Below, piece after piece: positions 15,145-51,137 of a stretch of DNA of 64,000 nucleotides. The notes under the pieces were generated by a model that searched no databases, was not told the DNA's origin, and saw only the letters and a list, made by a program, of their open reading frames with translations. Made by a program: the position numbers and the translations under genes. The DNA is from Marchantia polymorpha subsp. ruderalis (Eukaryota > Streptophyta > Marchantiopsida > Marchantiales > Marchantiaceae): assembly GCA_037833965.1 (NCBI GenBank), contig AP031354.1, positions 13,804,001 through 13,868,000 on the forward strand, written 5' to 3'. Position 1 is the stretch's first letter, and each line of letters starts with the position of its first letter.

Positions 15145-17156
15145 ATGATTTATAGTCTTCATCATAGTGTTTTCATAATTTATGTATGTCTTCACTTGAA
15201 CTTTGTTATTCTCAATGTAGAATCTTGAGAATATCCATCTGTAAATATATATATCTTAGTTTTTTCAGAACCTGGTATAATTTCACTCACACACATAGAT
15301 AAAGCTTGTATAATTTCTATATCTTATAGCACAAATACATAATCTGAAAAAAAGTATTATTTATGTAACACAATACACCAAAATTATTTGTATGCATTTT
15401 ATATAAGAAGACAAGATACTTAATTTGATTTTTTTATAAAATCTAAAAATCAGATGAAATTATAATGGACTTGATTGGATAACATATAATACAAAATTTA
15501 TTTATTTATATCTGATATAACATGATTAAAATACCGTGGCAACAAATGTATACAAAAAATGTCAATGTATTATTATAACTTTTGAATCTAGTCGTACTTT
15601 TAATATTTAATTTCAACTTATTTCAAACAAATTTTCAATTAAAAAAACATTGTAATATGTAAGGTTGAAATAATATATATTCAGAATAAAATTATATCAA
15701 AATAAAGTCAATTTTTGACATATTAAATTTTTTTAATATTTTCTCTATTGTTATCATCTATATTAATCATTATTGTATAATTCCCGAAAATATATTCTTA
15801 TATGATAATCGTATAAAAACCTTAGATTTCTAATGGTACAAATAAGATAACAACAAAATTTCAAAACATATATATTTATTTGTATTTTGATTATGCAGTA
15901 AAAAATATAAATGAATCTCAGACATCATTTTTTTACTAGTTACTAAATTCTAACTCTAAGCACACACAATTCTAACAAATTTTTAAACTAATAATTTATT
16001 CCGTAGGAAAAAAACGTTTTTGATGGAAAATGCGTATGAATTTATCCATGTTATATAGCAATTAATGCCATCAGTAATTAATTTTTTCCTGAATTTGAAT
16101 AATGTAATTATTCACATATATTATTGACCTCAGGCACATACATTTTAGTTTTTTTAGTTTTTGTAAAAAATAAGATTTTCAATACTTGATTATATTCACG
16201 TATTCATTAAGTTTTTTATTTACAATATATGCATAAAAAAACAAACCAAGTTATTTCCCCTACTTGGGTTACCATGTTTTTGAAATCTTATGTCTAAGAT
16301 ATATTTGATGTATACTAAATGAATGCACAAGATCCTTAAACATGTAACTTTTTAAGTATGTAATATATTCAATTCAACAAAAATGTTTATCTTAAAAAAA
16401 AACATATCAGATGAACACTAAAACTCCTTGTTTCATTACATATTTAGCATGAGCAAGCACATCACACATCATTCATATGATCGAGAAGAAGTGCAGATAG
16501 CATATCATTGGAACAATATAATAGTATCATTCAAACATGTTTTTCATTATTTGTTCAATCATCCATGATTTTTTTTCTTACTTTTTCATATCAAAATCTC
16601 ATATTCATGAGCTTTGGTTCATTTCAACCGACTTCTTTTAAAATTTGTCATATGAGTCATAGTTGATAAACAATTAATAACCATTATTTTTTATTAAAAT
16701 TACAAAAAAGCAATTTGTTTAAATGATCTTTAATGATTGCATCTTGCTCTTATATATTGATGAATTTAGTTTTTATTCAATGTGTATCCATACGCAAAGT
16801 TATGCACTTACAATTATTGGTTATGACCAACTTTACAAGTATTTAGATAATTTTGGGTTTGGAAGTATATTTTTACCTAATATCTGCTAATTATTAAATT
16901 TATATTTTAGATAATTAAAATTAATCAAATTATATCGAAAAATTAAATTTTTATATGATATAGCTTATATTCAAAATTTTATTTTCATGTTTTTTATGTT
17001 CCAAACACTATGAAAATCCTTTAAAAAAAATAGAGTAATAATTTTAATTTATCTATAGTTTAAATGATAAGATCAACTAAACAGTTTGATGTTTTAAGAG
17101 TGAAGCAATATCATTGCAACATCATTTGTCAAAACCATCTAATTGTAAGTAAAAAT
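15145..17156. other. AT-rich intergenic tract
   Basis: Strongly AT-rich, stops in all frames, no gene or clear repeat. It ends in AAAAAT at 17151-17156, which recurs right after the Copia-1 3' LTR and is the likely target-site duplication. Confidence 0.6.
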
Positions 17157-17351
17157 TGTTGAGATTAACTCCGGTTAAGAAGTAACCTCAAGCTCTAGCC
17201 ATTTATAGTTATGTGTGTCGCTGGCTTTGGGTATAAATATACCCCCAAAGCCAAGGTTTCTCGAATGAGGTGAAGTATTGTGTATTCACTTGTCAATAAA
17301 CCTCCTCAGTGTTCCAGCCGTGGACGTAGTACTCGAGGGTGAACCACGTTA
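17157..17351 (+). repeat. Copia-1 5' LTR, 3' end lost
   Basis: Matches the 3' LTR (21454-21705) from TGTTGAG through the CGAGGGTGAA region, then diverges after CACGTTA at 17351. The last roughly 55 bp of the LTR and the expected tRNA-Met primer-binding site are missing. The sequence that follows repeats AAAAGCTAC motifs and contains the hairpin ACCTTAGCT-AAA-AGCTAAGGT (17392-17412). Confidence 0.85.
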
Positions 17352-17542
17352 AAAGCTACACTAAAAGCTACGTTAGACTAAATTTTCAGCTACCTTAGCT
17401 AAAAGCTAAGGTTTAGTTTGAAGTTCAGGGTACGCGCTCACGTGGTCGATACATACGAGGTTAAAGCGCCAGCACTCGTTGTCGCGGGTGACTGATCTTT
17501 TCAGTCGCGGGCGACGGTGGTCATGGGCGACAAGAGTCGCGG

Positions 17543-18565
17543 GTGACGGATATAGTCACGGGTTACAGACGTAAAGTGCATCTTGACCATTTTCAGGAGC
17601 TGAAAATGCACTCAAAAGACGAAATTGCCGTGACAACAGACAGTATCTCTAGTTTTGGTCGAACAGAGATGGCCTCAAAACAAGTTGCAGGAACAGGGTA
17701 CAACATTCTTACTCTTGATGGCCGATCTGATTACTTGCTTTGGGAAAAGTAGGTAAAAGACAAGTTGAGATCTATGGGTCTCGCTAATGTGCTTAAAGAC
17801 AAACTAATGCACATTACCGACATTGATTGAAAGGATTCACAAGAGCAAGCAGTCTACATTGTGATGGGTTATCTCGATCCTTTGGTTATGAAGCAAGTTG
17901 AGGAGTATCTTGAGGTTACACAGCTTTTTGATGCCCTACAAAGACGGTTTCATCAGAAGAAAATCTCCCATGTGATGAATATCTACATGAGGCTATTGAA
18001 TTTCAGGATGAGGCCGGGCTCGAGAATTCAGGATCACATTCACGCCTACGGAGATTTGTTGGTAGATCTTCAAAGTATGGGAGAGAAGCTTTCTGACATT
18101 AAGAAATCTATGCATCTACTTCACTCATTACCTCCCTTTTATCAGACACTATCAAAGATTCTACTTCATCGTGATAACAAGGCTGCAACTTACAACGAGG
18201 TTGTAAGTGCTTTTCTGGAAGACGCAGTGGAACAAGAGATGTTGTCATTCTTTCGCCCATTCACTTCAAGTACTGCACTTACTGTGATCCGGGGTCAGTC
18301 GCAACCATCGGGTCAGGACAATCTGCAGCGTACATGGTTCAAGCAACAGAGATCGAGATCCCCTAAGCGTAGGAGAGTTCATTTTCAGGTTCCATCTCCT
18401 AACAAGAGTAACTTGAAGAACTTGGTGTGTTCAAGATGTGGCAAGAATGATCATATCAAGAAGTACTATCGGATGCAAATCAGAGATGTGAATCTTTCTC
18501 AAGTGACGAATGTTGCGGAGCATCTTCACTCTGAAGAGGAAGACGTGTTTACCGACGGTCTATGA
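17543..18565 (+). pseudogene. Copia-1 gag (UBN2-type) pseudogene
   Basis: One frame encodes a Copia capsid/nucleocapsid precursor, interrupted by TAG at 17750-17752 and TGA at 17828-17830; both positions normally carry tryptophan. The UBN2-like region covers about 17861-18240. A zinc knuckle CSRCGKNDHIKKYY near 18430 has tyrosine in place of the last cysteine of CCHC. A basic linker precedes the knuckle. The frame ends at TGA 18563-18565 and continues in the same frame into protease. Confidence 0.85.
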
Positions 18566-19738
18566 TGCTAGAGGTATGCCCTCTGTAGTTCACCAACAGT
18601 TCTTGGTGATGTATGGATTTTGGATAGTGCTTGTTCTTATCACATTCGCTACATTAGAGAGTTCTTCTATACTTTCTCAACATCAAACGGGTCTGTTCTT
18701 ATGGGAAATGACAAACCTTGTAAGATTGAGGATGTTGGATCTGTTAAAATCCGCATGTTTGATGGTGTAAATTAAACACTGACACACGTTAGATTTATAC
18801 TTAATATGAGAAAGAACTTGATCTTTCTTGGAGTGTTAGACTCACACGGCTTGGAGTGGAGCTCTAGGCATGGAGTGTTAGATGTCAAATCTAGTGATAA
18901 GAAGGTTATACTTAAGGGTCATAAGCACAATAACCTATACTTATTAGAGGGCACCACAATTTGTAGAGAAGTCAACTTTACCAGATCTTGCAGAGAGATG
19001 TCTCATTTATGGCATTCCGGACTAGGCCATATGAGTGATAGGTACTTGTCTCTTCTTGATGACAAGAAAGTGTTACCGGGTTTGGGTACACTTGACTTTG
19101 CATTTTGTGAACACTGCATCATGGGAAAACAACATAGGCGAGCTTTTAGCGTTGGAACTCATAATTCCAAGGAGAAACTGGAGTTTGTACATAGTGACGT
19201 ATGAGGTCCATCTCCTACTGCCTCACTCTTAGGAAAGCTCTACTATATTTCTTTTATAGATGATTACTCTAGGTATGTGTGGGTATATTTTCTTACCCAC
19301 AAGTCTGAGGTCCTTTCAACCTTCAAAACTTGGCGCATTCAAGTTGAGAATCAAACTGGCAATAGGGTAAAATATTTACGATCAGATAATGGCGGCGAAT
19401 ATACTTCTAAGGAGTTTCAAAGGTATTGTAAAGAGGAGTGGATTACTCGTCACTTCACGACAGTTTACACTCCCCAACAAAATGCTATTTCTGAAAGACT
19501 CAACAAAACAGTGTTGGAAAAGGTGCGGAGTATGCTAAGTGAATCTGGTTTACCATGAGAGTTTTTGGCCGAAGCCGTCAACACCGCAGTTCATCTGGTA
19601 AACCTCTTTACTTCTAATGCAATCCAATTTTCCACACCGTTTGAACTCAGGCATAAACGGATGGCAGATTACAGCCGCTTGAAGATTTTTGGCTGTACTG
19701 CTTATCCTTTTACGCCAAAGGAGCACAAAACTAAGTAA
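18566..19738 (+). pseudogene. Copia-1 protease and integrase pseudogene
   Basis: Same frame as gag. The aspartic protease motif WILDSACSYHI begins near 18612. The GAG-pre-integrase domain follows, with the HHCC zinc module (H...H...CEHC). The integrase core shows FIDDYSRYVWV (first D), LRSDNGGEY (second D) and QQNAISERLNK (catalytic E). Stops at 18773 (TAA), 19202 (TGA), 19556 (TGA) and 19736 (TAA) break it. The two TGA codons stand where relatives have tryptophan. Confidence 0.88.
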
Positions 19739-20512
19739 GACGCTACGTCCAAGAAATGTCGAAGAGTTTGATCATTATATCACTACTGATCTGTCACAAG
19801 AAGAAGCACCGGTTCATCAAGAACATGAGGAACTTGAGCGAATTATCATTGATGAACCTATTGCAATAGTTTCAGACAATAGAGATCAAGCTGAAACGTC
19901 TACTAGGAGATCGCATCGTGCTAGTAGGGCTCCTGAAAGGTTTGATGTGTGGGCAAATTCATCCATTCTAGAAGATTGTGACTTTGATATCAAATATAGG
20001 GATGGTATAGCGTTGATTTTGGAAGAAGGTGAACCTTCTTCATACAGGGAAGCTCAAACTTTGGTCAATAAGCTTGAGTGGAATACTGCTATGGAGCGAG
20101 AGATGGAATCCCTAATTGACAATAAGATTTGGGAGCTAGTTGAGCCTCCTACCAATCAAATGATGATTGACTCCAAGTGGGTGTACAAGCTGAAAGATAA
20201 TCCAGGAGGAGACGAGGCGAAAATCTTCAAAGCTAGGTTGGTGGCTAGAGGTTTCACCCCAGAGAAGGATGTGGACTACAACAAAGTTTTCTCACCGGTA
20301 GCTAAGTATGCTACAATTCGTCTGGTATGTGCACTGTCTGCGATCTTTGATCTTGTTAGGGATCAGATGGATGTGGTTACAGCTTTTCTCTATGGATATT
20401 TAGAGTAGTAGATCTACATGAGACAACCTGTTGGTTTTGAGGTTAAAGGCAAAGAGAAGTTGGTTTGTAGATTATTGAAATCATTGTATAAATTGAAGTA
20501 TGGACTCCTTTG
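19739..20512 (+). pseudogene. Copia-1 reverse transcriptase, N-terminal part
   Basis: After a frame change near 19738, the frame to 20408 reads through an acidic linker into the RVT_2 domain: SKWVYKLKDNPGGDEAKIFK, KARLVARGFTPEKDVDY, FSPVAKYATIR and DVVTAFLYGYLE. Two stops (20406-20411) separate it from IYMRQPVGFEVKGKEKLVCR and KSLYKLK. There the family sequence breaks off: the following roughly 190-200 residues, including YVDD, are absent. Confidence 0.85.
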
Positions 20513-21262
20513 GCAGCACATTTCAAACTCTTTGCAGCTCAATGTCATACGGATGCAGTGGAGAAAGGAAATATGTCATGTGTTCCCTATGGACAAGCTG
20601 TAGGCAGCCTCATGTATTTGATGGTGTGCACTAGGCCTGACATTGCTTTTACGATGGGCAAGGTGAACAGGTACATGTCAAATCCGAGGAAAGTTCACTG
20701 GGAAGCAGTGAAATGGATTTTGAGATATTTGAAGAGTACATTGGATTATGGCTTATTGTTTGATGGTCTATAGGACAATGCCAAATCCTTGTTTGTTTAC
20801 GTTGATGCTGACTACGGACAAGATCTATATAAAAGGAGATCTACAACTGGGTATGTACTTACACTTGGCGGTGGAAGCATTAGTTGGATGTCTACCTTGC
20901 AGAAATGCGTAGCTCAGTCAACAACGGAAGTTGAATATGTGGCAGCAGCAGAAGCGGCAAAGGAAGCTATTTGGTTGGATAGGCTTATCATGGAAATGGG
21001 ATTGAAGCAGGGTGTGGTTAATCTTCATTGTGATAGCCAGAGCGCTTTACATTTGGCCGCGAACCAGGTCATAAGATAGAAGAGTGAAGCACATTGACAT
21101 CAAGTATCATTTTATCAGACAAGCAGTGTCTAATAAAACGATTGAGCTAGTCAAGAGCGACGGTAAACTCAATCCAGCTGATGTTTTGACCAAAGTTATT
21201 CCATTGGAGAGTTTCAGGCAACACTATGCTACCATGCAAGTTGTGCATGGGGAGCACATGTA
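20513..21262 (+). pseudogene. Copia-1 RT thumb remnant and RNase H
   Basis: Begins at the segment that normally lies well after YVDD (PLAAHFKLF), then VGSLMYLMVCTRPDIAFTMG and HWEAVKWILRYLKSTLDYG. A TAG at 20771 is followed by the RNase H domain: VYVDADYGQDLYKRRSTTGY, CVAQSTTEVEYVAAAEA and HCDSQSALHLA. A stop and frameshift near 21077 precede the conserved C-terminus ending in VVHGEHM and TAA at 21260-21262. Confidence 0.88.
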
Positions 21263-21439
21263 AAATTTGCTAGCATAGTAACTCTTTTTAACTCTTTATG
21301 TTATTACTCTATCCTGTTATGGTTACGGTCTATTTCTAGTTAACTCTCGTGTAAAGAGGGGCCTTGTGATAGGTTTATGTTTAGAATTTCCCGCTGAGTA
21401 ATAATATAGGTTTCAGAGGTTACTGTTTCCTTAACACGA

Positions 21440-21453
21440 GTTAAGGGGAAGAT
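21440..21453 (+). other. Copia-1 polypurine tract
   Basis: TTAAGGGGAAGAT lies immediately upstream of the 3' LTR, the expected position for the plus-strand primer. The equivalent in Copia-2 is AAGGGGGAGAT. Confidence 0.8.
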
Positions 21454-21705
21454 TGTTGAGGTTAACTCCGGTTAAGGAGTAACCTCATGCTCTAGCTATT
21501 TATAGCTATGTGTGTCGCTGGCTTTGGGTATAAATATACCCCCAAAACCAAGGCTTCTCAAAGGAGTTGAAGTATTGTGTATTCACTTGTTAGTAAACCT
21601 GCTCAATGTTCCTGCCATGGACGTAGTCCTCGAGGGTGAAACACGTTATATGAGTGTCTTGTGTCTTCGTACTTGGCTTGAATGATTCTTGGTTTTACGT
21701 TAACA
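21454..21705 (+). repeat. Copia-1 3' LTR
   Basis: A 252-bp repeat starting TGTTGAGG and ending TTAACA, with the inner TATAAATA box-like motif near 21530. It contains the GGTTTTACGTTAACA end that also terminates the Copia-3 LTR. Confidence 0.88.
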
Positions 21706-38070: not shown

Positions 38071-38416
38071 TTAACTTATTTTTTCATATAGTCTTTTTAT
38101 GTTTGATGTATTGAAAATCAGAAAAGTCATCTTCAAAATACTTATCACTAAAAAATATAGCTTTTGAATTCCAAGTTACATTCATTATCTTTTGATATTT
38201 ATTCAGTTATTGAAATTATGAAATAAATAAATGTTAAAAAATTAATTGATAATAATTATCTTTGATTTTTTTTAATGTAATTTTTATTTTATAAATCTTA
38301 TCAACGCATCAATTGGATTGAATTCACAATTAATCTTGAGAAACTCAACCTACTCATTAGAAATTGCATTTTTGATAAAATGATACATTATTACCATGTG
38401 TTTCACTTTGCTATTT

Positions 38417-38656
38417 TGTTGAGATTAACTCAAGTTAAGGAGTAGCCTCGTGTACTAGCTATTTATAGCTAGGACATTCGTTTGGACTCGGAATAAAGAA
38501 CTTGGGGTTCATCTTGTACGGGAACGTTTTCTTTTTTACAACACCTGAAGTAAAGTGTTGAGAGTTTTGGGTGAACGTAGCACTCTTTCTCGAGGGTGAA
38601 CCATGTTACATTGTGTGTCTCAACTATTCATGTCACTAGAGTGTTTTGGCGTTACA
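38417..38656 (+). repeat. Copia-2 5' LTR
   Basis: Starts TGTTGAGATTAACTCAAG and ends GGCGTTACA. It pairs with 46922-47148 (shared ACTAGCTATTTATAGCTA, TCATCTTGTACGGG and GAGTGTTTTGGCGTTACA), with visible divergence between the two. Confidence 0.88.
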
Positions 38657-38658
38657 AA

Positions 38659-38670
38659 TGGTATCACAGC
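38659..38670 (+). other. Primer-binding site for initiator tRNA-Met
   Basis: TGGTATCACAGC lies 2 bp inside the 5' LTR and differs at one base from the usual plant Copia site TGGTATCAGAGC. Confidence 0.85.
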
Positions 38671-38858
38671 ATGTTCGGTTCGGACTCGGTGTCAGAGTTT
38701 TTACCTAACAGATTTTATATAGATTTTTCAAAAAGAAATCCCGGTTTTAGTGGCAGTGTGTTTTCTTTTGAGAAGTCATTTTGCAATGGGAATTGTTTGT
38801 AGGTCTCCTTTGAACAAGTTGTGAACGGATATCTTCATGCCTGATCGTTGAAAAAATT

Positions 38859-39446
38859 GAGAATGAGAGAGGTCACCATAAGAGAGATAGGCGCAAGTTT
38901 AGAGATGAGTACGTTGCTAATGGCGCTAATTTGTGGCGCAATCCTCAATTGGAGAGCCGCGGCGTTGCTGGTGATGGATCCTCTCGGGGGAGGTTTGAGT
39001 GTAGAGATCGTCATGGGATTAGAGGCCCGGGTGACGAGAAACCTCCACAAGGTTCCCAATCTGATCCTTTCACAGACTTGTATCAATATTGATATTCTAC
39101 TGTGACCGAACTCCCTGATGTTGGTGACAAATTTGTGATGGTCTAGTATAATATCTTGGCCGATAAGAATGCTGCCAAACATTACAATGACATGTATTAT
39201 CATATTCCTTGAAGGCTTATGAATTGGAAGATGAACCAGTATGAAGACATGCGGAATGAGTTTGAGAAGAGAGGTCACCTAGACACTTACAAGGGCTGCA
39301 CATGAGGAGCACTTGACGGTTGTGCTATATTTTAGAGGTCTAGCATGTTCTGGTTGCTAGATAAACAAAGTATACAGTTTGACACTCTTGGGTCAAGGTA
39401 CAATGTTGTACAGTTGTGTGAGTTATTGGGGTTAGGGAAAACATGA
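38859..39446 (+). pseudogene. Captured CCR4-like deadenylase (EEP domain) fragment
   Basis: One frame (38859-39446), broken only by stops, reads like the start of the exonuclease domain of plant CCR4 homologues, which shorten mRNA poly(A) tails. An Arg/Gly-rich N-terminal stretch precedes TELPDVGDKFVMV, then YNILAD, MYYHIP, NWKM, YEDMRNEFEKRGH, ALDGCAIF, IQFDTLGSRYNVVQLCEL. The family pattern is SYNILAD, H-I-P-R, QEVD, DGCAIFWR and NVAQLC. The QEVD portion is missing between NWKM and YEDM, an internal deletion. Stops are at 39090, 39144, 39210, 39303 and 39333; those after HIP and IF replace the family's Arg and Trp. The frame has no intron-like gap, suggesting capture from spliced RNA. It lies about 190 bp inside the Copia-2 primer site. 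Not functional. Confidence 0.68.
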
Positions 39447-39537
39447 CTTCAAACATTGAAGTTAATATGCTAGATTTTGGGTCCTCAGGAAATGTTGTAT
39501 AGTGGGCAACATCCACGTGCTATTTAACCCCAAGAGA

Positions 39538-40092
39538 TGTGACATCAAACTTCAAGCGCAGGGAGAAGCTCAGAACCAGGAGCTGGGCAGAAGCGACAGT
39601 GCTCTCGCGGTCGCAGCGGTGTGGCCACCGTTACCAACAAAGCGGACTGAGCGGTTAGGACCGCACGCCCCCGAGCGGTGAGGACCAACCCCCTAACAAG
39701 ACCGCATGGGCGCCGTCAGCAGGTCCCGGCATTGAGAGACCTGCAACCTCCGAGCTGACTTTCACTCAGGTTTACCTCTGATGGCTTTGCGGTAGCGCAT
39801 CATGGTTCTAGAAGACTAGGATTCATCCTCACACTCATAGCCGAAACACTCACTCACACAATCACTCGAGGTAGCACTCCAACTCACACACACATCGACA
39901 CTCCAATGTATTGAAAATTCATCACTCTTTCATATATGAAACAAGTCTCTACATATGAACTCTCCAAACTTGCTTGAGAGGTGCTACTCCACCACTTTAA
40001 TTATACTACTTGAGAGGTTACCATAGTAACATGTGGTAATTTCTTCTAACTAACTTTTACCTAGATAAGTTTGACTTACCCTCTCTAATTGG
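39538..40092 (-). mobile_element. Left half of an insertion split by the LINE, LTR-like
   Basis: GC-richer than its surroundings at 39538-39800, starting TGTGACATC. Together with 44983-45425, which ends GGTCTTACA, it could be one minus-strand LTR-type unit (reading TGTAAGACCGGGTGTTGGAC ... GATGTCACA) of about 1 kb interrupted by the LINE. Terminal TG/CA fits, but no target duplication is seen. No coding domain was recognised, so the class is tentative. Confidence 0.35.
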
Positions 40093-40896
40093 TGGAACGC
40101 TGGAGTAGGGCAGGGCGCACGAGCCTCCAAAATTTCAGGCCGAACGCCATTCGGAGCGAGAAGTTGACGTGTCTTGGAGGTCTGAGCTTTTTGAGAGTGG
40201 AGGGCCAAATCTTGCAGGGGCCGTAACTTTGGGTTCGAGTGTGAACGGAGGCTGAAATTTTGTGGCGTTGTGAAGTTGGATAGAGCTCTCAAGCCTGTCA
40301 ATTTTCAGGTCGAACGGAGTTTCAGAGTCAGAGTGCGTTCAATTTTGAGTTTCGAGCTTTGAGTTTCAAGATTTGAGGGCAAGAGATTCTTACGTGAGCT
40401 GTATCTTCTACGTTCGGAGTGATCTGGAGCTAAAATTTGATGGAACGCTGGAGTAGGGCAAGGCGCACAAGACTCCAAAATTTCAGGCCAAACGCCATTT
40501 GGAGCGAGAAGTTGACGTGTCTTGGAGGTCTGAGCTTTTTGAGAGTGGAGGGCCAAATCTTGCAGGGGCTGTAACTTTGGATTCGAGTGTGAACGGAGGC
40601 TGAAATTTTGTGGCGTTGTGACGTTGGGTAGAGCTCTCAAGCTTGTCAATTTTCAGGTCGAACGGAGTTTCAGAGTCAGAGTGCGTTCAATTTTGAGTTT
40701 CGAGCTTTGAGTTTCAAGATTTGAGGGCAAGAGATTCTTGCGGGAGCTGTATCTTCTACGTTCGGAGTGATCTGGAGCTGAAATTTAGTGGAACGCTGGA
40801 GTAGGGCAGGGCGCACGAGCTTGCAAAATTTCAGGCCGAACGCCATTCAGAGCAAGAAGTTGACGTGTCTTGGAGGTCTGAGCTTTTCGAGAGAGC
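40093..40896 (+). repeat. 348-bp tandem units (2.3 copies) upstream of LINE ORF1
   Basis: TGGAACGCTGGAGTAGGGC begins units at 40093, 40441 and 40789, an exact 348-bp period with few mismatches. The third unit is cut off where the LINE ORF1 leader starts. This resembles the promoter monomers at the 5' end of some LINEs. Minus-strand frames of 83 and 114 codons across the units are repeats of one another and not genes. Confidence 0.88.
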
Positions 40897-40902
40897 ATTC
40901 AC

Positions 40903-41644
40903 ATGATGGCGTCTCAAGACAATTTCATACTCAATCTGTTGCAAACAGTTTTGGAAGAGTTGAAAGTACTACGTGCAAAATTCAAGGTACAGAGCTCTAC
41001 TTTAATTGCAGCTCAATATGAAATTAGAGAGTTGAAGCTCTCTCAAAAGAGTTTCGAGAAGATTATGGTTGATATTTCAGATTACGTAGAGGATATCCAG
41101 GAGAAAGTTGGTTCTCAAACTTCCACTGCTGCTACTCCTAGATTCCATGAAGTGGTTGAAAGTCTAGAGGTGAAGATGAAATCTTATGCAGAAGCCACCA
41201 AGTCTGCTCATATCTCTTTCTGTCAAGAGCAAGAGATTGAAAAGACTAATCAATTTGCTCGTAGAAAGAATGTGAGAATTTCTGGTCTACCTGAATCTGA
41301 GAAGGAAGAGGTGAAGAGTGTTGTCACCAAGTTTTTAGCTGAAACACTTGATGTTCCTAATGCGGATGGTGGCTCAAGCTTTTCGCATTGGAACCATAGG
41401 AACTCAACCTCGAGCCATCATAGTTAAGTTCAATGACCAAACTCAACGTGATACAGCTTTAGCGAACAAAGCTGTACTCAAAGGACGTAGGATTTGGTTA
41501 GATCCCGATCTCACACCTCTACAAGTAGAGGCAAGGAGAAAGGAGCTTGCAAAAGTCAAAGAAGCTCAAGATGCTGGATTTTTTGCTTATCTCCGTGATG
41601 GACAAGCAATTGTCACTCAACGGAAGAGACAATCATCCACATAG
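40903..41644 (+). pseudogene. LINE ORF1 (RNA-binding protein), one frameshift
   Basis: Begins with tandem ATGs at 40903 and 40906. Residues about 10-75 form a helical, probable coiled-coil region (EELKVLRAKFKVQSST...). The RNA-binding core starts with RRKNVRISGLPESEKEE and, after a one-base frame change near 41345-41380, continues as PRAIIVKFNDQTQRDTAL, KGRRIWLDPDLTPLQVEARR, FAYLRDGQAIV. This matches the L1-like ORF1p pattern (transposase_22 type). It ends in TAG at 41642-41644, just before ORF2. Confidence 0.8.
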
Positions 41645-41656
41645 CAATCCAAGAGC

Positions 41657-44600
41657 TTGAGGGTGTTAATGTGGAATATTAGAGGTCTTTCTACAACCAA
41701 GTATGTGAGTGCTAATCCGATTTGGAAGATGGCGGACATCATCAACATTGTGGAGACGTGGGAACATGAGAGCAACACTATTGGAGAGATATCAGGGTTT
41801 ACTTTGGTGGGATCCACTTGGAATCAGAGAAGTCAACGAGCTGGAAGAGGCTATGGCGGTATTGCTACTTTCATCAAATCTCAATTTCTACCTTTGATAC
41901 ATTTAGAAGGTCAGGATATTGGAGGTCAATATCATTGGCTTCGTCTTGGTTTGGTTGGAGGATAGTTATTTGGCTATTTGTTACTTTGCACCATTGTCCA
42001 TGTCTATCTACTCCACACGCACTTGCAATCGGAGTCAACCATTCCATCGACTTATAGGAGATGTTTTCAATTATCAGAGCAAAGGTGAAGTTTTTCTGGT
42101 TGGAGGATTTCAATGCTCGAATAGGTTGTGCACAATTTACCCAAGTTGGTGATCTCTTGATTTCTTCCTCCTTTGAAGAACTTGAAGATAGTATGTGGTG
42201 TAGAAAGTCTTCTGATATTTGTACAAATCCTTTGACAGAATACTTTCTAACCTTTGGAGCCACATGTAATTTGAAAGTTCCCTACGGTATCTCTCTCTTT
42301 CCCAACTCCCTTTCCAATACGTGCTTTTCTCCTACAGGTGTTAGCACCATTGATTATCTTCTATCCTCAGCCACTCATAGCTCTCTTATTTCGAAATTTG
42401 ATATTCTAGAACCTCAGCTAGAGTCAGATCATGCACCTCTCTTATTTACTCTCTTGTTATCAAAAACAATCTCTCTCTCTCCATGCCATTCTGTTTTAGC
42501 TTCTCCCAAGTTTCGTTTAGATACTAGTAAGAAAGAGCAGTACATGTTACATTTTCAAAACCTCTTGACTCACACTTCATGGAGCCTTGATCCACATACA
42601 GCGAGTGGGCAATTAATAGAGTTGCTCAAAGACACTGCTTCTAAGTTCTTTTTTACGACACAAGGATCGAAGAGCTAGGGGGCTTCCTTGCAATGGATGG
42701 TTTGACTTGGATTGTAAGCAAGCGAGAATGAGATCAGTTGACAAGTCTTTAGATTTCCAAAGTCGGCTTACCTTGACAAGGCTTTACAAAGACTTGGTGA
42801 AGTCTAAAAAAAGAGCTTTTTTGAGGACGAAGCAGGAATCCTTGACAAAGGAGTTGATGGAGAATCCCAAATCCTTTTGGATACGGTTAGGTGTAAGGTC
42901 TTCAAAACCTACTCTTGATCCTAAGAGTTTGATTGACTTTTCTGAAAAGCTTTATTTCTTTCCCAACGCTGCATCAATGCCTTCTTGTGAAGGAACATCA
43001 GGCTTATTTTCTAAATCAGAGGTGATGACTCAAGTTAGAAAATTAGCAAATGGTAAATCGGAGGATTTGGATGGTCTCTCTATTGAACTTTTGAAGTGGG
43101 GAGGAGATGTTATTGGACCAAGACTTACCAAAGCGTTAGAGAATGCAGCTATGTATGGTTTTCCTTCAGCTTGGTCATTACGGAAGATTGTGCATATTCA
43201 CAAGTCAGGAAGGAAGGACTTGGTGACAAACTATCGCACTATCATGGTGGGTAGTGTTTTTGCCAAGTTCTTTGGCAAATTGGTGGAGTCAAAGTTGAGC
43301 ATATGGACTGAATCTCATCGAAAGAGAGCGCGGTTTCAAGCAGGCTTTCGCCCCACAAACAACACCATTGACCATATCTTGGCTTTGCGTGTTTTATGGG
43401 AGAAGTCGAAGGGCAACGGCAAAGCTTTGTTTTGCGCCTTCATTAATTTTAGGAAAGCTTTTGACACCGTACCTCGTGAGCTATTATGGGAAAGGCTGCA
43501 AGTCATTGGAGTACCATCAGATCTTCTAGCAGCTGTGGCCACGCTTTACCAATCTGTTCGAGCCAAGATCAACACTTCTCAAACTGAAGAGGTTTTGAGT
43601 ACCATTGGAGTGATTCAAGGTTGTCATCTCTCTCCTACTCTATTTGGAGTTTTTATAGATGATATCGAAGAGTGGTTGGAGGCATATGATAGTGAAGGTG
43701 TCAAGCTTGGAAACTTTGTTATCAAAGCTCTCTTGTATGCAGATGATATCATATTACTAGCACGTGATGCAATTAGTTTACAGAAACACCTATACACTTT
43801 GGCTAGCTTTTGTACCCAGAATCAAATGGAAGTAAATATAGAGAAGTCCAAAGTCATGATAGTGGGCACTAGATCCAAGTTTTCCTTCTATTACCAGGAT
43901 CTACAATTAGAAGAGGTGAAGAGTTATAAATATCTAGGCATTGATTTTTCTAATGATTATAGTTGGGCACTTTGTGTGCAAAAGAGAGTAGAAGGTGGTT
44001 ACAAAGCTCTATATTCATTGCTAAATCGGTGTAGAAGGGCTCATCTTGTGTCTTGGAGTCTTAGGAAATTTTTATTCAGAAGCTTAGTGTTGCCGATAGT
44101 ATTGTATGGAACCCAAGTGTGGGGTCCTGGTTGTAAGAAGACAGGATGGGAGCGTGTGGAGAAGGTGCAGAAGATATTTCTACAAGAAGAATTGGGTGTG
44201 AGAAACCAAACCTCATATGCTATTCTTCTTGCGGAAACAGGTTGTTTACCTTTAGAGGCTGAAGCTCTATACTTGACCATCACTTACATCACAAGGGTGA
44301 GATCTCTTGATGCTTCTCGCCTTCCTCCTCAGGCTTTGAGTGCCACACGTGCCAAAGGATGGTTAGCGGATGTGATAACTTGGTCTTTGAGGTGGAATGT
44401 GACGGAACGCGATTGGGACCTACAACCTATAGCACTACGTGAATGTCTAAAGGAGGAGTTTTTGAACATTATTTGGAGCAAGCGCGGCACCAAGATGCAG
44501 TTTTATCAACTTCATGTGAATCCTATGCTTGTTTATTGTGAACAGGATTACCTACTTGTAGGAATCTCTACGTCCTTACGTCATATTATTGCTAGGCATA

Positions 44601-44866
44601 GAACTGGATCTCATAGGCTTGGAATTGAGGAAGGACGTTGGCTTAATATTGATAGGAGTGAACGTATTTGTAGGCTATGTGATGGAAGAGAAGTTGAGTA
44701 TGAAGAGCATGTATTTCTTACTTGTACTAGATATGCAGAGATTAGAGTGACTCATAATATAGATGTAGAGAATTTTAATTCTTTGTTACAGTTAGTTCCT
44801 TTTGATTTAGGTTGTTATGTTAGGGACATTATTAGTTATCGTTCTAGTGCTCTTGGCACTAGCTAG
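41657..44866 (+). pseudogene. LINE ORF2: APE endonuclease and reverse transcriptase
   Basis: The endonuclease starts MWNIRGLST with catalytic-type VETWEHES, then shifts frame near 41960, 42075 and 42670; DFNARIG and ESDHAPL mark its later motifs. From 42707 a clean 719-codon frame carries the reverse transcriptase: FRKAFDTVPRELLWERL (motif A), QGCHLSPTLFGVF (motif B), YADD at residues 344-347, and a C-terminal C655-C658-H668-C673 knuckle. Motif A reads INFRKAFD: the first, metal-binding Asp of the usual xDFxKAFD is Asn (AAT at 43445-43447, residue 247). The copy would be inactive for that reason as well as for the frameshifts. Confidence 0.88.
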
Positions 44867-44982
44867 GGTTTGGCCTTTGGGGTCTTTTCCCTTGTTTGTG
44901 GCTGTCGCTTGTATTGTGTTTTTCAGCCTTTTGACCCTTTGGGTTCCCCGGGCTTGATCTATTACCATTTACCATTTACTAT

Positions 44983-45425
44983 GTGGCAACATGCCATTGG
45001 CTTACCTAAACCTTCTAGAAGTTTCTGGAATCCAAGGTTGAGGTGGCGACATGCCATTGGAAGCTTTTAAACTTCTACAAGCTTCTTAGCCACTAAGTCA
45101 ACATTTAGACTTAATCTAGCCAATCATCTTTCATATATTGAGTCAAACTAATCAAATCCAAGCTTATAGTCAAATATTTAATCTTTTGGAATCTAGAACT
45201 TTGTAGAAGACAAAATAGAAGTGCTCACTCCACTCTTCTAGAACTCCGCTAATTCTTCCGCCAACTATAGACATCATAGCTAAACTTAGTCATGATTAGA
45301 TAAACTTAATTATAACTAATTAGTTTAGTTATAACTAGCTAGACTTAGCTATGTCTTGGCTAATTATCCCTAATTACTTGACGACTTCTAAGACTTAGTA
45401 CATATGTCCAACACCCGGTCTTACA
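44983..45425 (-). mobile_element. Right half of the split LTR-like insertion
   Basis: Follows the LINE tail. Contains a direct repeat GTGGC(A/G)ACATGCCATTGG at 44983-45000 and 45043-45060. It ends TGTCCAACACCCGGTCTTAC(A), which on the minus strand resembles the start of plant LTRs. See the left half at 39538. Confidence 0.35.
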
Positions 45426-46080
45426 GACTCCTTCCAGATTTAGAGATCCATCTACATGGTTTGTAGTGCCGTTTGAAGCACAGTTTGCAGCGCAATTTTC
45501 TACGCAATTTTGGGCACAACGCTGTTTTAGGTCAAACGTGATTGGTAGTCAACGTGGTCAATGTCAAACATGGTTGAAGTTAAACGTCGTTGGCAGAGCA
45601 ACACAATCAACAAGTGATGGTGACGGTGACGAACGGTGAACGACGGTGACGGTGACGGAATATTCTGTCAAAAATATTTATCATCAGAGTATAGGCAAAT
45701 TGGATATCGTTGGAATGCTCCCGACACAAATAGTGCATATGGATATTTTTCAGGAGGTGAATGATGACTCAAAAAGGAGGAAATTAACTCAGAAACTGTT
45801 ATTGTCTCTCCTTTTCAACGTGATTGCGGGCGACATAGGTCACGAGCAACAGATAGTCGCGGGCGACGATGGTAACGGATGATTGACAGTACAATTGCTG
45901 GTGATGGATCTTTGTACTAACAAGTGAAAATTTTCATTCACGTATGTAACTACATACGTGAATACGTGTGGGAGTTTTAATCATTTTTTGAATAATGATC
46001 GAGATAAGCACCGGTATGTAGTTGTGAGGAAGTTTGATCATTTTTTGAATAATGATCAAGATGTGCATGGTACAAGTTAA
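45426..46080 (+). repeat. Copia-2 leader-like noncoding segment
   Basis: Contains GTGACGGTGACGG and GTCGCGGGCGACG mini-repeats that also occur in the Copia-1 leader (17480-17545), showing common origin. A perfect hairpin, ATTCACGTATGTA (45936-45948) against 45951-45963, has a 2-base loop. ATCATTTTTTGAATAATGAT, itself a hairpin, occurs twice at 45980 and 46037. A 78-codon frame (45646-45882) has no recognisable product. Confidence 0.6.
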
Positions 46081-46084
46081 TTAT

Positions 46085-46410
46085 AGTACCGTGAAGCACA
46101 ACGATATCAGGTATTTTATTAGACAAGAGTGTCTGATAAAATGATTGAGTTAGTGAAGATGGATGGTAGATTCTGGTGATTGAGCTAGTTAATCTTGATG
46201 GTAAACTCTGATGATTGAGCTAATCAAGATTGACGATAGACTCTGGTAATTGAGCTAGTACATCTTGAAGGTAAACTTTGATTATTGAGCTAGTTAAGAT
46301 AGACGGTAAATTTGATCCAACTTATGAGTTGGTCAAAGTTACTTCTTTAGAGAGTTTCAGGCGACACTATGCTATCATGCAGGTTGTGCATGGGAAGCGC
46401 AAGTAAATTT
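46085..46410 (+). pseudogene. Copia-2 RNase H tail with 35-bp tandem repeat
   Basis: Matches the last codons of Copia-1 RNase H (AAGCACATTGACATCAAG region to GGTTGTGCATGGGGAGCACA). Between them the ATTGAGCTAGTCAAG segment is amplified: five units start at 46144, 46179, 46214, 46249 and 46284, an exact 35-bp period. The period is not a multiple of three and destroys the frame. Confidence 0.85.
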
Positions 46411-46449
46411 TGCTAACATATTATCTTTAGTTATATTTTTATAAATTTA

Positions 46450-46905
46450 CTTTATCCTGTGATGGCTACGGCTTAGTTCTAGTTAACTCTCATGTGAACA
46501 TTAGCCTTGTATTGGGTTTCTTTTTAGAACTTCTTGTAGAGTAATTATATAGATTAAGAGATTTATGTTCTCTTTATGCATGTTGGTATTTAGTTACCTC
46601 TTTATGTTATTACTCTATCCCGTGATGGCTACGGCTTAGTTCTAATCAACTCTCGTGTGAACAGTAGCCTTGTATTAGTTTTCTTTCTAGAACTTTCCGT
46701 GGAGTAATTATATAGATTAAGAGATTTATGTTCTCTCTATGCTAGCTGGTTTTTAGTTACCTATTTATGTTATTAGTCTATCTTGTTATGGTTAGGGCTT
46801 AGTTCTAGTTAAGTCTTGTGTAAAGAGAGTACTTATGTTAGGTTTCTATCTAGAATTTCACACGGAGTAATAATGTATGTTATAGAGGTTACTTTTCCTT
46901 AACGT
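46450..46905 (+). repeat. 163-bp tandem triplication in the Copia-2 3' UTR
   Basis: GATGGCTACGGCTTAGTTCT begins at 46461 and 46624, and its diverged form at 46787, an exact 163-bp period. Copia-1 has a single copy of this unit (about 21290-21440). The third unit, next to the polypurine tract, is closest to the Copia-1 version. Confidence 0.85.
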
Positions 46906-46921
46906 GAGTTAAGGGGGAGAT

Positions 46922-47148
46922 TGTTGAGATTAACTTTAGTTAAAGAGTATACTCGCGTACTAGCTATTTATAGCTAAGACATTCATCTGCACTCGGGATA
47001 AATACCTCGGGTTTCATCTTGTACGGGGACTTTTTTTCTGACAAGATCTAAAGTAACGTGCTGAGAGTTCTAGGTGGAAGTAGTACTCTTCTCCGAGTAT
47101 GAACCATGTCTCAAGTATTTCATGTCACTGGAGTGTTTTGGCGTTACA
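46922..47148 (+). repeat. Copia-2 3' LTR
   Basis: Preceded by the polypurine tract AAGGGGGAGAT (46911-46921). Starts TGTTGAGATTAACTTTAG and ends GGCGTTACA. Partner of 38417-38656. Confidence 0.88.
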
Positions 47149-49454
47149 TATCTATCACTTCATTTGCATCAATATGGAATGCACTCTTACTACCATACTA
47201 CCATAATGAAGATTCACAATCTCTATGCCAATCCCAATTTTTTGTTAAAATAATAGATGCATGAAGTTAAAATATAAAGTAATAAAACATTGTCGTATTT
47301 TTAAATATGACAAAAATTAATAAAATGTAAAAATATAATATGAATAACATTAAAAACATCATTTCCGAGTTACAAAAATTTGAGTTGACAGAATAATGAT
47401 TAATGACACAATCATGAAACAAGACTTTTTTGTAAAACCAAGAGAATCAATACATAAGTTATATCAAAATTGAATTATTTTATATATAGAAAAATAATTG
47501 TTATTTTAATTCAAAGACATATGATTTAAATGAAGATAATTCATAATATATTGCATAGAGTTATAATGCAAATTACATAAAGTTAACATCATACTATATA
47601 ATTGCATTAAACACATCATTTTTTTTACTTTTTTACTCATTGTTTAAAAGATTTGCTGAAGTATGATTGTTTTCTTTGTTGCAACAAAATCTTTTCAGCT
47701 GATTTTTTTTTTCCTACACTTTCAATATAACACAATATTTTGGTATTGAAATCTTTTTTAAATCTAGAAATAGTATATTATTTCAATATTTGTTCAATTT
47801 TCAAGTCTTTCACAATCTAAATTCAACATCGTATATCAATTTCAAAGTTACACACTAAATCCAAACATGTCAAGCTCTCTAAGTTTCAACCTATCAACAT
47901 CAAAACACACTAGGAAGTGAAGTATTAATTAAACAAAGTCTTGTAAGATATTATCAGCTTGTAAAATTCATAACGACTTGCATGAGTATACCACTCAATA
48001 AATCGGATTTGATGAAATCAAATTCAAATTCAAAACTTGATTAAATCAATGGCATGCATCCGCGATCAATGAAGATTTTTATATCACTTCATCTACTTTT
48101 TGAACAAACCTCAAGCAAATCAATAAAGTAGTTGAATCATATATCTAAAATAGTAGCACTACATAACAATTGCAAACCCACAAGAAAATGAGCTATATAG
48201 TTAAAGTTGTAGCACTCCACAACAACCCCAGTCCAATCCATTTTGCAATCGACACGTTAAAACAAAGAAGAAAGCTATATCATCAAATTCTTACCTCCAC
48301 TCTTTTCATGTGTGGTATAATATCATTTTGACTTCACTGAGATTTTTTTGAATCTAAAATCTCAAACACATGTTCAAAATCGTATTATTTGAAAGATGTA
48401 TGCATACGGAAATTATCTTTTTATCTCTTGAAACAATTTTAATGTTTGAAATGTATTAAGGATTCAACTAATTCTACTCAGTCTAATTATGAAAAGTTAA
48501 ATGAGATATGAAGCGTTGTGTAAAAGAACTCAGAATAGTTCTGTATGGAATTAATCAGAAAATGAGAGTTTTACATAAATCTACTATAGAAGTTGCGACA
48601 TGTTAGTTACAATACAGTTCAGAATGTTGGAGACACTCCCAACATTATGAACTGGATTGTGGTGCACCAGATTATACTTTCTATTGAAACTGCCATAAAA
48701 TGTGCTACAGATTTACATAATCGGTGGATTTGCTTAAAACAACCGTAAACCTTTGAACCCGCATTTTTGCATTTCACAAGATTACATTGTGCTGACTTTA
48801 TCCGTGAAAAACATAAACATTTTATGGACCAATATACCTGTACATTCATAATCCAAAAGTTGATATTGAATTTGATTATTGAGAATGCATTACTGTGAAT
48901 CCTCTTTCGCATCTTCTTATCCTGGCTTATTTATATACTCATGGCATATGGAGAAGTTTTTTCCTAATTAGGTGAATCCAAGAATGTGGTATACAATACT
49001 ACATTGATTTCTGCAACATGCTCTATACCACGAACAACTGCAATTATAATTTTGCAACCTTTCTATCAATTTGAAACTAGACATAGACCATATAGTTTAC
49101 GATCTGGAAGTATTTTCAGGAGTCAATAGCTCCTTTAAATCAACACTGCTTACCTAGTTGAATAACCAGAAATTGAATACCGGAGAGTTACGACACGCAA
49201 AAATACACGGCAGCACGAATTTGTAGAAAGAATACAAATGATACTAATATGGCCGAGAAAGTGGAATAGAACAATACGTGTCTCTCCAATTTCGTCCATT
49301 TTTCTCACTCCATAATATCTATTGTTCTCTCTGAGCTCGACTTTGCAAAAGTCAGGAGCCAATGGCACATAGATGGAAACTTGGTCAAGAATCCGGCACA
49401 TAATTCCGATTTTTCTACAATATCTGTACTCGCAGCCTGTGCAAGAAATGTGCT
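47149..49454. other. AT-rich tract, then 3' flank of the next gene
   Basis: AT-rich to about 48500 and more mixed after that. Short frames (48619-48912 and 49150-49401, both minus) show no recognisable domain. The right end is probably the 3' UTR of the minus-strand frame ending at 49455. Confidence 0.5.
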
Positions 49455-51137
49455 TCAGGTTCTAATTCCGGTGGAATCCAAAGTTTGAGTTGAGGCACAA
49501 GGATCTTTCAACATCGCAAGCCTTGTGGAAGAAGCCAGAGGATCAAGTGAACTGCAAGAGTAATCAAATGAAGAGATTCTAGTAGAGGAAGACAGAGAAA
49601 TCTCTGGACTGCAAGAGAAATCACTTTTCTCTGAACTAGATATGACGCATGGCGACTGCTCGTGAGAATCAGAGTAATCATCAACCTGCGTCCATATACT
49701 GCCGTAGTCAGGTAAAGCTGGTCCCAGCGACCTGGTTGACAAATAATTAGGAATCTGATCTGTACTCTGCCACCAAATCTCTGTCTTACTCTTACTAGAC
49801 GCCCTTTGCCTACATGGTGAAGCTTCTAGGTCTCCGGGTTTTGCTCTATACGATGCAGTCGATGAACCTGCTAAACTGTCCATCCATTGTCCTAGCTTTT
49901 CGCAGCTCAACAGTGGATTCTGACCTGACTGGATAGATTGGAGTGGATTGCAAGAGTCTTCCAAACCAGCAATCTCCAAATGGCCAAACAGATCCTTCGG
50001 CTTTGTTTCACAAGCTTCAACTCGAGAAGGCTGTTCACTCGACCGAGCAGAAAAATGCGCAGCAGAAAGAAGACTTTTGCTGTCCCCAAGATGTAAACCA
50101 GAGATCTCTCCTGACTGCTTTCCCAAAACATTGCTAACATTTTCCTGCTTTTTTCGCATTAGAGTGATGAACATGCTAGGGTTCTCTGCACGATCATCAG
50201 AAGCCGAACTGAGATTGCTTGATTCTTCACTGCAGTATCCACTGCAAAGAGCATGAGAACACTTATCGTGTTTAGAAGAGGAGAGGTCTTCTGCTGTGTC
50301 TGTCTTTACTGCTCTTCCACTACTCTTTTGATTCCTTGATGGCTTTTCGCGTGTTGGAAGTTTAAACAGTAGCGATTTGCTTCTCTTCGCGGAATCCATT
50401 TCCAAACACTGGCGATCTTTCTTTGATGGCACAGCCATGGGATTGGCTGAGCGCGATATATCTGCCAGTGCTGCATCTAGGTTTTTCAATAAGCTGGTGC
50501 TATCAAGGCGAGAGAGATCAGTATTTGGCAACATTTTTCCGCGATTGATCTTGGTAGGTCCAACGGGCTGAGACTCGTCGCCGCTCTGCTCCTGGATTTT
50601 CTGGACACTGGACGAATCTACATGCTTCTTCGATGGAAAATATAACTGGCTCAATGAGATTGAGGGATCAGGCCTTTTGAATTCATCAACAACCTCAACT
50701 CGAGAAGGTTTTGATGGCAGATCTTTGAAGTACCTTAATATATCTGCGGTGCTTGGCAAAACTTGTCTGTAATTTGAACAAACATATCTTGCTTCAAAAC
50801 TTGGACATGCCAACTGCTCCTGTGAACTGTTGTGACTAATCTGACCTTCCGGCGAGCTTGATCCGAGGGACTTTAGTAGCTCATCCAAAGGATTAGACAT
50901 TTCAGGCCTGCCGTCCTGAATGACGTTCTCTTTTCCATTCCGGGAGATCGTTTTCATTTTAACCTGTCGTGAATCACCGTCAAAATATACGAAGGTCAAT
51001 CTCTCCACAATCCTTTTTTTCTCCTCATCTAAACAGGTTTTGCCTCGTGCAAGTGTTGACAGGCTCTTGAAGTTATGTTTCGCTTTCCGACAAATTTGCC
51101 AAGTATATTTGCCGTATGTTCCGCATTTGAGCCACAT
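49455..51137 (-). CDS. Large serine-rich protein of unknown function
   Basis: An uninterrupted 560-codon minus-strand frame, far longer than chance in this window, so very likely a coding exon. The N-terminal part is basic with an acidic/lysine cluster (DEEKKRIVERLTFVYFDGDS). After that the protein is Ser-, Pro- and Lys-rich with little hydrophobic content, typical of disordered nuclear or cytoskeletal proteins. Short leucine motifs stand out (NPLDELLKSLG, LLKNLDAALADI). The last 60 residues repeat SSSTR- and SSLDPLASSTR-like units before TGA. The true start is unclear: the first ATG is at 51137, an in-frame MKTISRNGKEN occurs about 60 residues in, and a second minus frame (51321-51073) overlaps the 5' end and could be an upstream exon. 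I do not recognise the family. Confidence 0.65.
   Translation of the reverse strand: MWLKCGTYGKYTWQICRKAKHNFKSLSTLARGKTCLDEEKKRIVERLTFVYFDGDSRQVKMKTISRNGKENVIQDGRPEMSNPLDELLKSLGSSSPEGQISHNSSQEQLACPSFEARYVCSNYRQVLPSTADILRYFKDLPSKPSRVEVVDEFKRPDPSISLSQLYFPSKKHVDSSSVQKIQEQSGDESQPVGPTKINRGKMLPNTDLSRLDSTSLLKNLDAALADISRSANPMAVPSKKDRQCLEMDSAKRSKSLLFKLPTREKPSRNQKSSGRAVKTDTAEDLSSSKHDKCSHALCSGYCSEESSNLSSASDDRAENPSMFITLMRKKQENVSNVLGKQSGEISGLHLGDSKSLLSAAHFSARSSEQPSRVEACETKPKDLFGHLEIAGLEDSCNPLQSIQSGQNPLLSCEKLGQWMDSLAGSSTASYRAKPGDLEASPCRQRASSKSKTEIWWQSTDQIPNYLSTRSLGPALPDYGSIWTQVDDYSDSHEQSPCVISSSEKSDFSCSPEISLSSSTRISSFDYSCSSLDPLASSTRLAMLKDPCASTQTLDSTGIRT

Follow-up and report, generated by a model that had tools for sequence, protein, structure and literature searches.

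Capture of host gene sequence by plant LTR retrotransposons has been described in several systems. The maize element Bs1 contains segments of three host genes (PMC13317346, PMC4717578, PMC8616336), and abnormal template switching is described in a review (PMC13317346). In soybean and Medicago, 30 gene-bearing TRIMs from seven of 289 subfamilies contain exons only; two TRIMs have exons of more than two genes (three genes in GmaRetroS15), and the average size over the 289 subfamilies is 685 bp (PMC4717578). In maize B73, 425 gene-bearing LTR elements with at least 189 captures were recorded, and under the authors' conditions no element held more than one standard nuclear gene (PMC2774510). Retroduplication in pepper placed spliced mRNA, mainly of NLR genes of certain subgroups, into mostly non-autonomous LTR elements; purifying selection was reported, and two or three genes inside single elements are also mentioned (PMC5664825). 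Pack-MULEs and Helitrons are non-autonomous, DNA-based systems of serial gene-fragment capture (PMC13317346), and Pack-MULEs contain exons plus introns (PMC4717578). In these papers, plant LTR elements that each captured more than one gene are rare, with Bs1, two TRIMs and unspecified pepper cases as the examples.

Here we analysed a 64,000-nt stretch of Marchantia polymorpha subsp. ruderalis DNA (the window), which contains a gene-capturing LTR element, together with relatives of that element in the same genome. Like Bs1, the family has several host-gene segments fused inside an LTR element, and Bs1 likewise has exons only according to PMC4717578. However, Bs1 is described as one chimera, whereas here the mosaic differs between the seven searched relatives, each of which draws on at least two loci; the window copy adds a further, single-source capture. 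Short LTRs, the lack of coding capacity and the restriction to exons recall these TRIMs, but the relatives here are mostly longer (LTR pairs spanning 3.2–4.5 kb), retain 163-nt repeats as well as a remnant of pol at the 3′ end, and are mosaic in every copy searched. Gene fragments lie inside LTR elements in maize B73 too, but multi-locus content is the rule among the copies tested here and not in B73. As in pepper, spliced mRNA appears to have been copied into mostly non-autonomous LTR elements, although the fragments here come from unrelated loci and the one measured, in the window, decays neutrally. The capture route, apparently via RNA, differs from that of the DNA-based Pack-MULEs and Helitrons.

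The window copy alone is a further case of the already known gene capture by LTR elements. Multi-gene capture is known as well, but a family whose tested copies all differ in their multi-locus mosaics seems to be new; such a family was not described in the literature searched, and most subscription journals lay outside that search. A family in which seven of seven searched copies are mosaic would record template switching in retrotransposon particles naturally and in replicate. With such a family, the packaged mRNAs, the length of common sequence at switches and the rate of element-RNA splicing between cycles could be measured. The family would also shuffle exons by way of RNA, in a style similar to that of Pack-MULEs.

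Captured host fragment in the window

The genome of 241 Mb (9 contigs) was searched with the captured DNA. Apart from the window itself, five matches of exon size came up, every one of them on contig C6 and far beyond chance (E = 8.7e-81 to 1.4e-13), and local BLAST on the C6 locus added two more, giving seven collinear blocks of 86–93% identity. Compared exon by exon, window positions 38882–39551 were 89% identical to seven host exons. An earlier note, made from the letters of the window, had placed a CCR4 deadenylase fragment at 38859–39446, just inside the primer-binding site of an element that it called Copia-2. The homology is real, but its true span starts 23 nt and ends 105 nt further on, and its placement was loose, with about 210 nt of element leader between the primer-binding site and the capture. 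The four landmarks of that reading (YNILAD, MYYHIP, DGCAIF and NVVQLCEL, starting at 39147, 39192, 39315 and 39402) do share one frame, but five stops interrupt it ahead of NVVQLCEL, and it is shifted thereafter. Because of these five in-frame stops, we regard the fragment as a relic and not as a working gene.

The captured exons follow one another on the plus strand: the 3′ part of host exon 1 at 38882–39126 (host junction GTG|GTAATC...CATCAG|ACA), exon 2 without its last 66 nt at 39127–39227, exon 3 at 39228–39293, exon 4 at 39294–39346, exon 5 at 39347–39424, with a 3′ end blurred by a small deletion, and exon 6 at 39425–39480, the limits of exons 2 to 6 being taken from the junction analysis. 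Exon 7, delimited by sequence and BLAST, occupies 39481–39551 and ends before its donor, without poly(A). The single deletion noted previously corresponds to the missing end of exon 2, but further small indels lie near 39422 and 39499. Local BLAST from 45428 onward, past later insertions, found no host homology.

The parent gene and its missing introns

The parent EEP gene lies on C6 at 15797.0–15799.3 kb, so the parent that the earlier note had proposed to look for exists in the same genome, and the copy has its exons fused. Put together, the host exons form an open frame of 309 codons and match Exo_endo_phos (PF03372) at E 8.1e-7, above the cut-off. Among solved structures (PDB), the parent protein matched Angel homolog 2 (E 7.3e-20) ahead of CNOT6 (E 4.2e-15). 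Since Angel homolog 2 is the closest solved relative, "CCR4/Angel-like EEP protein" would be a safer label than CCR4 deadenylase.

Six parent introns of about 140–720 nt each are missing from the window copy, in agreement with the absence of any intron-like gap noted before. Each join was placed by a junction script, which searched the host for GT...AG on either strand. Joins 1, 2, 3, 4 and 6 were exact sense GT-AG joins, and join 5 was blurred by the small deletion. For join 5 the script offered a second exon-5/6 donor, TGC|GTTACA, which the copy fits only with mismatches, and the join was therefore classed as ambiguous.

At join 2 the copy passes from host base 7484 to 8007 (L007) and so omits the last 66 nt of exon 2, a segment that begins GTGAGG and ends TTTACAG. 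Because this segment has GT...AG ends at the end of exon 2, it looks as if it had been spliced out. The gap may stem either from an upstream donor in the mRNA, or from later cryptic-intron splicing of element RNA, or from chance loss. We give even chances to a genuine alternative host mRNA with the upstream donor TGG|GTGAGG: the gap starts at a GT, stops exactly at the host acceptor and preserves the frame, but the segment's own GT start and AG end mean that splicing after capture would give an identical product, and a plain deletion is a further candidate.

Age and decay of the capture

Copy and host differed at 68 of 614 aligned sites. The differences were spread over codon positions 1, 2 and 3 as 23, 24 and 21, and 44 of the 68, read with the host as the starting state, were G>A or C>T. 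This even spread and the predominance of G>A and C>T in the host-to-copy direction indicate that the window copy has decayed neutrally while the host gene has changed little. The K2P distance was 0.121 between copy and host and 0.214 between the two LTRs, or 0.107 per LTR. Given the closeness of 0.121 to 0.107, capture and last insertion look close in time, assuming even decay of the element and a near-unchanged host gene.

Anatomy of the element

The features of the element were delimited on the plus strand. A 5′ target-site duplication, TATTT (38412–38416), is followed by a 240-nt 5′ LTR with TG...CA ends (38417–38656), placed by alignment with the 3′ LTR and other copies, and by the primer-binding site TGGTATCACAGC (38659–38670), which presumably pairs with initiator tRNA-Met; the corresponding site of the sister copy L022 reads TGGTATCAGAGC. 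The element leader occupies 38671–38881, and the stretch 38818–38887 is 80% identical to L022 (C5:842363–842294) and ends in AGAGAGA. Behind the capture, the unassigned stretch 39552–39737 is perhaps part of the following repeat (one of nine copies, L055, matches 39657–39709). That high-copy repeat, solo-LTR-like by eye, is a later insertion whose two halves (39738–40087 and 44979–45427) enclose a LINE at 40088–44978 with 348-nt tandem 5′ units and an RVT_1 ORF (42620–44866). The tandem units at the LINE 5′ end (40089–40893) number three and are 94–96% identical over the stretches compared, and the RVT_1 frame is open over 748 codons. Further on lie the "leader C" block common to other copies of the family (45524–45965), a 3′ remnant 77–79% identical to the Copia-1 3′ end, with the remaining gag-pol absent (46083–46425), three 163-nt tandem repeats (46426–46914), a polypurine tract (46910–46920), the 3′ LTR (46922–47148), placed by LTR alignment, and the 3′ target-site duplication TATCT (47149–47153), which matches TATTT at four of five bases in this old copy. 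In the BLAST alignment the two LTRs are 79% identical across 253 columns, a count that takes in gaps and several bases of flank. The number of 163-nt repeats varies between copies, with six in L030, and one such unit also occurs in the Copia-1 element of the window (21283–21445).

The high-copy repeat and the LINE arrived later than the capture, and the repeat may have severed its 3′ end. As the 3′ edge of the capture adjoins this later insertion, the original 3′ join is probably lost.

With paired TG...CA LTRs, a primer-binding site at 38659 and a polypurine tract at 46910, the element is an LTR retrotransposon. A related Copia element (Copia-1) at 17152–21648 on the plus strand has matches to Retrotran_gag_2, rve (integrase) and RVT_2 in that order, in broken frames, and is possibly of the type of the helper. 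In comparison with it, we found no Copia gag-pol in the window element beyond the 3′ remnant. The name Copia-2 is thus apt for the 3′ end, which is 77–79% identical to that element, but a gag-pol with integrase before reverse transcriptase, as in the Copia superfamily, is lacking, and we take the window element to be derived from Copia, short of full membership. TRIM LTRs are roughly 100–250 nt long; the 240-nt LTR and the lack of coding capacity fit that class, and the size of 8.7 kb, repeat and LINE included, does not. The loss of gag-pol apart from the 3′ remnant bears out the non-autonomous status that the earlier note had assigned. Intron-free host sequence between LTRs, with a parent gene elsewhere, defines a gene-capturing LTR element, and the note's reading as gene capture by a non-autonomous LTR retrotransposon is supported by an intron-bearing parent, fused exon junctions, LTRs, primer-binding site, polypurine tract and near-matching target-site duplication.

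Sister copies and their mosaics

We scored the best 40 of 406 candidates in an LTR search and the best 40 of 951 in a 3′-end search, and these candidate numbers indicate a large family. LTR matches without element sequence behind them (L012, L023) and 3′-LTR matches were dropped before counting, which left twelve 5′-LTR copies besides the window. Internal segments of seven were searched against the genome (L013, L014, L016, L019, L022, L026 and L027); L010, L017, L018, L020 and L024 were left out of that search, L017 and L024 having little room for a capture. The relatives sampled are those most similar in LTR sequence. The L019 query comprised 1156 nt and excluded a high-copy repeat at one end. 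Matches to sister elements (L063/L064, L079) and to C4:4162730, which is copy L018, were dropped as sources.

The results showed that all seven searched copies matched two or more unlinked loci. L022 matched C8 and C2, and part of its C2 piece had a weaker second match on C9. L027 combined four exons of an aminotransferase gene on C2, a C5 gene, two exons of a second C2 gene (4426 kb; WD40-like by eye) and shorter pieces. L013 matched C7, C9 and C2; L014 contained one C3 gene in three pieces plus a C9 piece; and L026 matched C5, C7 (with a C6 relative) and C4, with a short, weak match to C5. L016 matched two exons on C3 and five more pieces on C2, C3, C2, C4 and C8, and L019 matched C7 twice and C9, with weaker matches to C4, C6 and C4; most sources of L016 and L019 are given here as loci that may or may not be genes. 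These two copies match neighbouring C4 stretches (C4:12840365–12840466 and C4:12840601–12840703), and one C4 source may have been captured twice. Pfam searches named four of ten source-gene pieces (EEP, aminotransferase class I/II, IQ and Prp3_C), and the IQ-named piece also matched BAG below its cut-off.

The start of the foreign sequence varied, lying roughly 50–230 nt downstream of the LTR. L022 has the window leader in common as far as AGAGAGA (38887), beyond which its sequence is different. In an all-against-all BLAST of 11 internal segments, the window included, common stretches were short (21–91 nt) and mostly at the leader end; a 64-nt stretch common to L020 and L026 lay deeper. Same-strand pairs of LTR matches elsewhere span 3.2–4.5 kb; the copies L017 and L024 are about 1.5–1.6 kb long. 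Pieces of the Copia-1 ORFs matched 6 of 38 loci (L020, L029, L033, L036, L040 and L041). Only L020 among these belongs to the twelve copies, and for it alone the position relative to the element was judged: the match falls outside it, ahead of the 5′ LTR. No Copia-1 gag-pol ORF match was found in the seven searched copies within about 1.5 kb behind the LTR.

The L027 mosaic has transposed since its capture, as a sister at C2:23947 kb has the same mosaic between separate LTRs. The earlier note had also suggested looking for other copies with the window fragment, and none appeared among the three scored candidates of the genome search. That the seven searched relatives would have captured other sequences instead had not been foreseen in that note.

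Intron joins across the family

For source loci whose sequence was compared, we examined 17 joins between exons that derive from a single source gene, drawn from six elements (window 6, L027 4, L014 2, L013 1, L026 3, L016 1). Fourteen were sense GT-AG joins, one was a sense GC-AG join, one was ambiguous (join 5 of the window) and one was not an intron (L026 against C4:29290, L086), the element having 30 other bases there. The GC-AG join, in L013, was read by eye where the junction script had offered nothing. At its host locus (L071, C9:20937.7–20938.0 kb, minus strand), a gene matching Prp3_C has an apparent GC-AG intron that is absent from the L013 copy. Eight source genes had at least one intron removed. 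None of the 17 joins needed an antisense reading, although CT-AC was also searched. Antisense capture was rejected: the sole CT-AC alternative sits 4 nt from a sense GT-AG reading.

A capture at the DNA level, Pack-MULE-like or through break repair, would also bring unlinked fragments between terminal repeats, and both L022 fragments do match sources without introns. Yet an intron is missing at 15 or more of the 17 joins, and wherever introns reveal the strand of a piece, that strand is sense; this leaves the DNA route scarcely credible. L022, with its intronless source matches, and L019, in which no evidence on introns came to light, are not proof of an RNA origin.

A processed pseudogene made by a LINE, which landed by chance in an older LTR element, would equally lack introns, and LINEs do lie nearby, one of them 536 nt from the capture. 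But the copy begins within exon 1 and ends within exon 7, no poly(A) follows 39551, and its 5′ join coincides with AGAGAGA, the leader motif of the family, directly behind which L022 has foreign sequence too (the C8 match starts about 12 nt further on). Fused pieces from several loci in seven other copies are likewise unfit for single LINE events. On the strength of the truncation at both ends, the missing poly(A) and the sister mosaics, we rejected this origin as very unlikely.

Joins between pieces and the route of capture

Short common sequence is the usual sign of template switching. We found it at three joins, as GAGAGA between window leader and host (with the leader taken from L022), GGTGA in L022 and AGGTA in L013, and single common bases at two further joins. 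Five of eight inter-gene joins were assessed, the remaining three having gaps of 11–312 nt. Three of the five are compatible with a GT donor and an AG acceptor at a single cut, as in GGACG|GTGACG with TTCAG|GTGAAG and AAAAG|GTATAT with TACAG|GTAGTC; shifted controls were so in 3–5% each. The other two, AlaAT>C5 and C5>C7 of L026, do not fit splicing, and the L026 join would need a GC donor.

The three fitting joins favour a route in which splicing came first, by trans-splicing or read-through transcripts, and the reverse transcriptase copied a ready-made chimeric RNA. Against it stand the two joins that do not fit, the C9 fragment of L013, which begins inside an open host frame, within a Pfam domain and away from an exon start, and the window capture, which begins and ends inside exons. 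Moreover, the same joins are explained by splicing after switching, and the L027/L063 pair displays such a loss. The sister of L027 keeps 161 nt of captured C5 sequence with GT...AG ends, 94% identical to the host, and the same 161 nt (L063:2536–2696, compared with L027 and L065) are exactly missing from L027, a likely exitron-style loss from element RNA. The sister's older join beside this stretch has no splice signals. We therefore consider splicing first improbable, whereas all of the join evidence would be accounted for if templates were switched first and the element's RNA was spliced afterwards.

Taken as a whole, the captured stretch in the window is very probably the dead cDNA of a spliced host mRNA in a Copia-derived element that lacks gag-pol, formed by switching and splicing. 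This reading is built on features of the DNA itself: intron loss, sense orientation where introns are readable, sources that are not linked to one another, the anatomy of an LTR element and two sister copies with one mosaic. From these we infer the steps of packaging, supply by a helper, template switching and splicing after capture. Particles made by a helper Copia would package the element's RNA along with host mRNAs. During minus-strand synthesis, the reverse transcriptase would leave the element's RNA either at the shared 3′ block or upstream of it, copy one or more host mRNAs in sense and return to the element leader at a short common sequence, and the product would integrate like a normal LTR element. 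Mosaics that transpose again would pass the nucleus as RNA, and cryptic GT-AG segments could be spliced away.

It is also quite probable, though less so, that the whole family acts as a serial mRNA trap, in which nearly every sizeable copy has, between the 5′ LTR region and the common 3′ block, its own patchwork of spliced exons from several unrelated host genes, reshaped by splicing whenever the element is transcribed. If so, the family would be a genomic archive of the host mRNAs and splice forms packaged in retrotransposon particles.

Two further features were observed elsewhere in the window. A serine-rich frame of 560 codons is open on the minus strand at 49455–51137 and is perhaps part of an ordinary host gene, and two direct tandem repeats of 113 nt, 83% identical, lie at 8904–9130.
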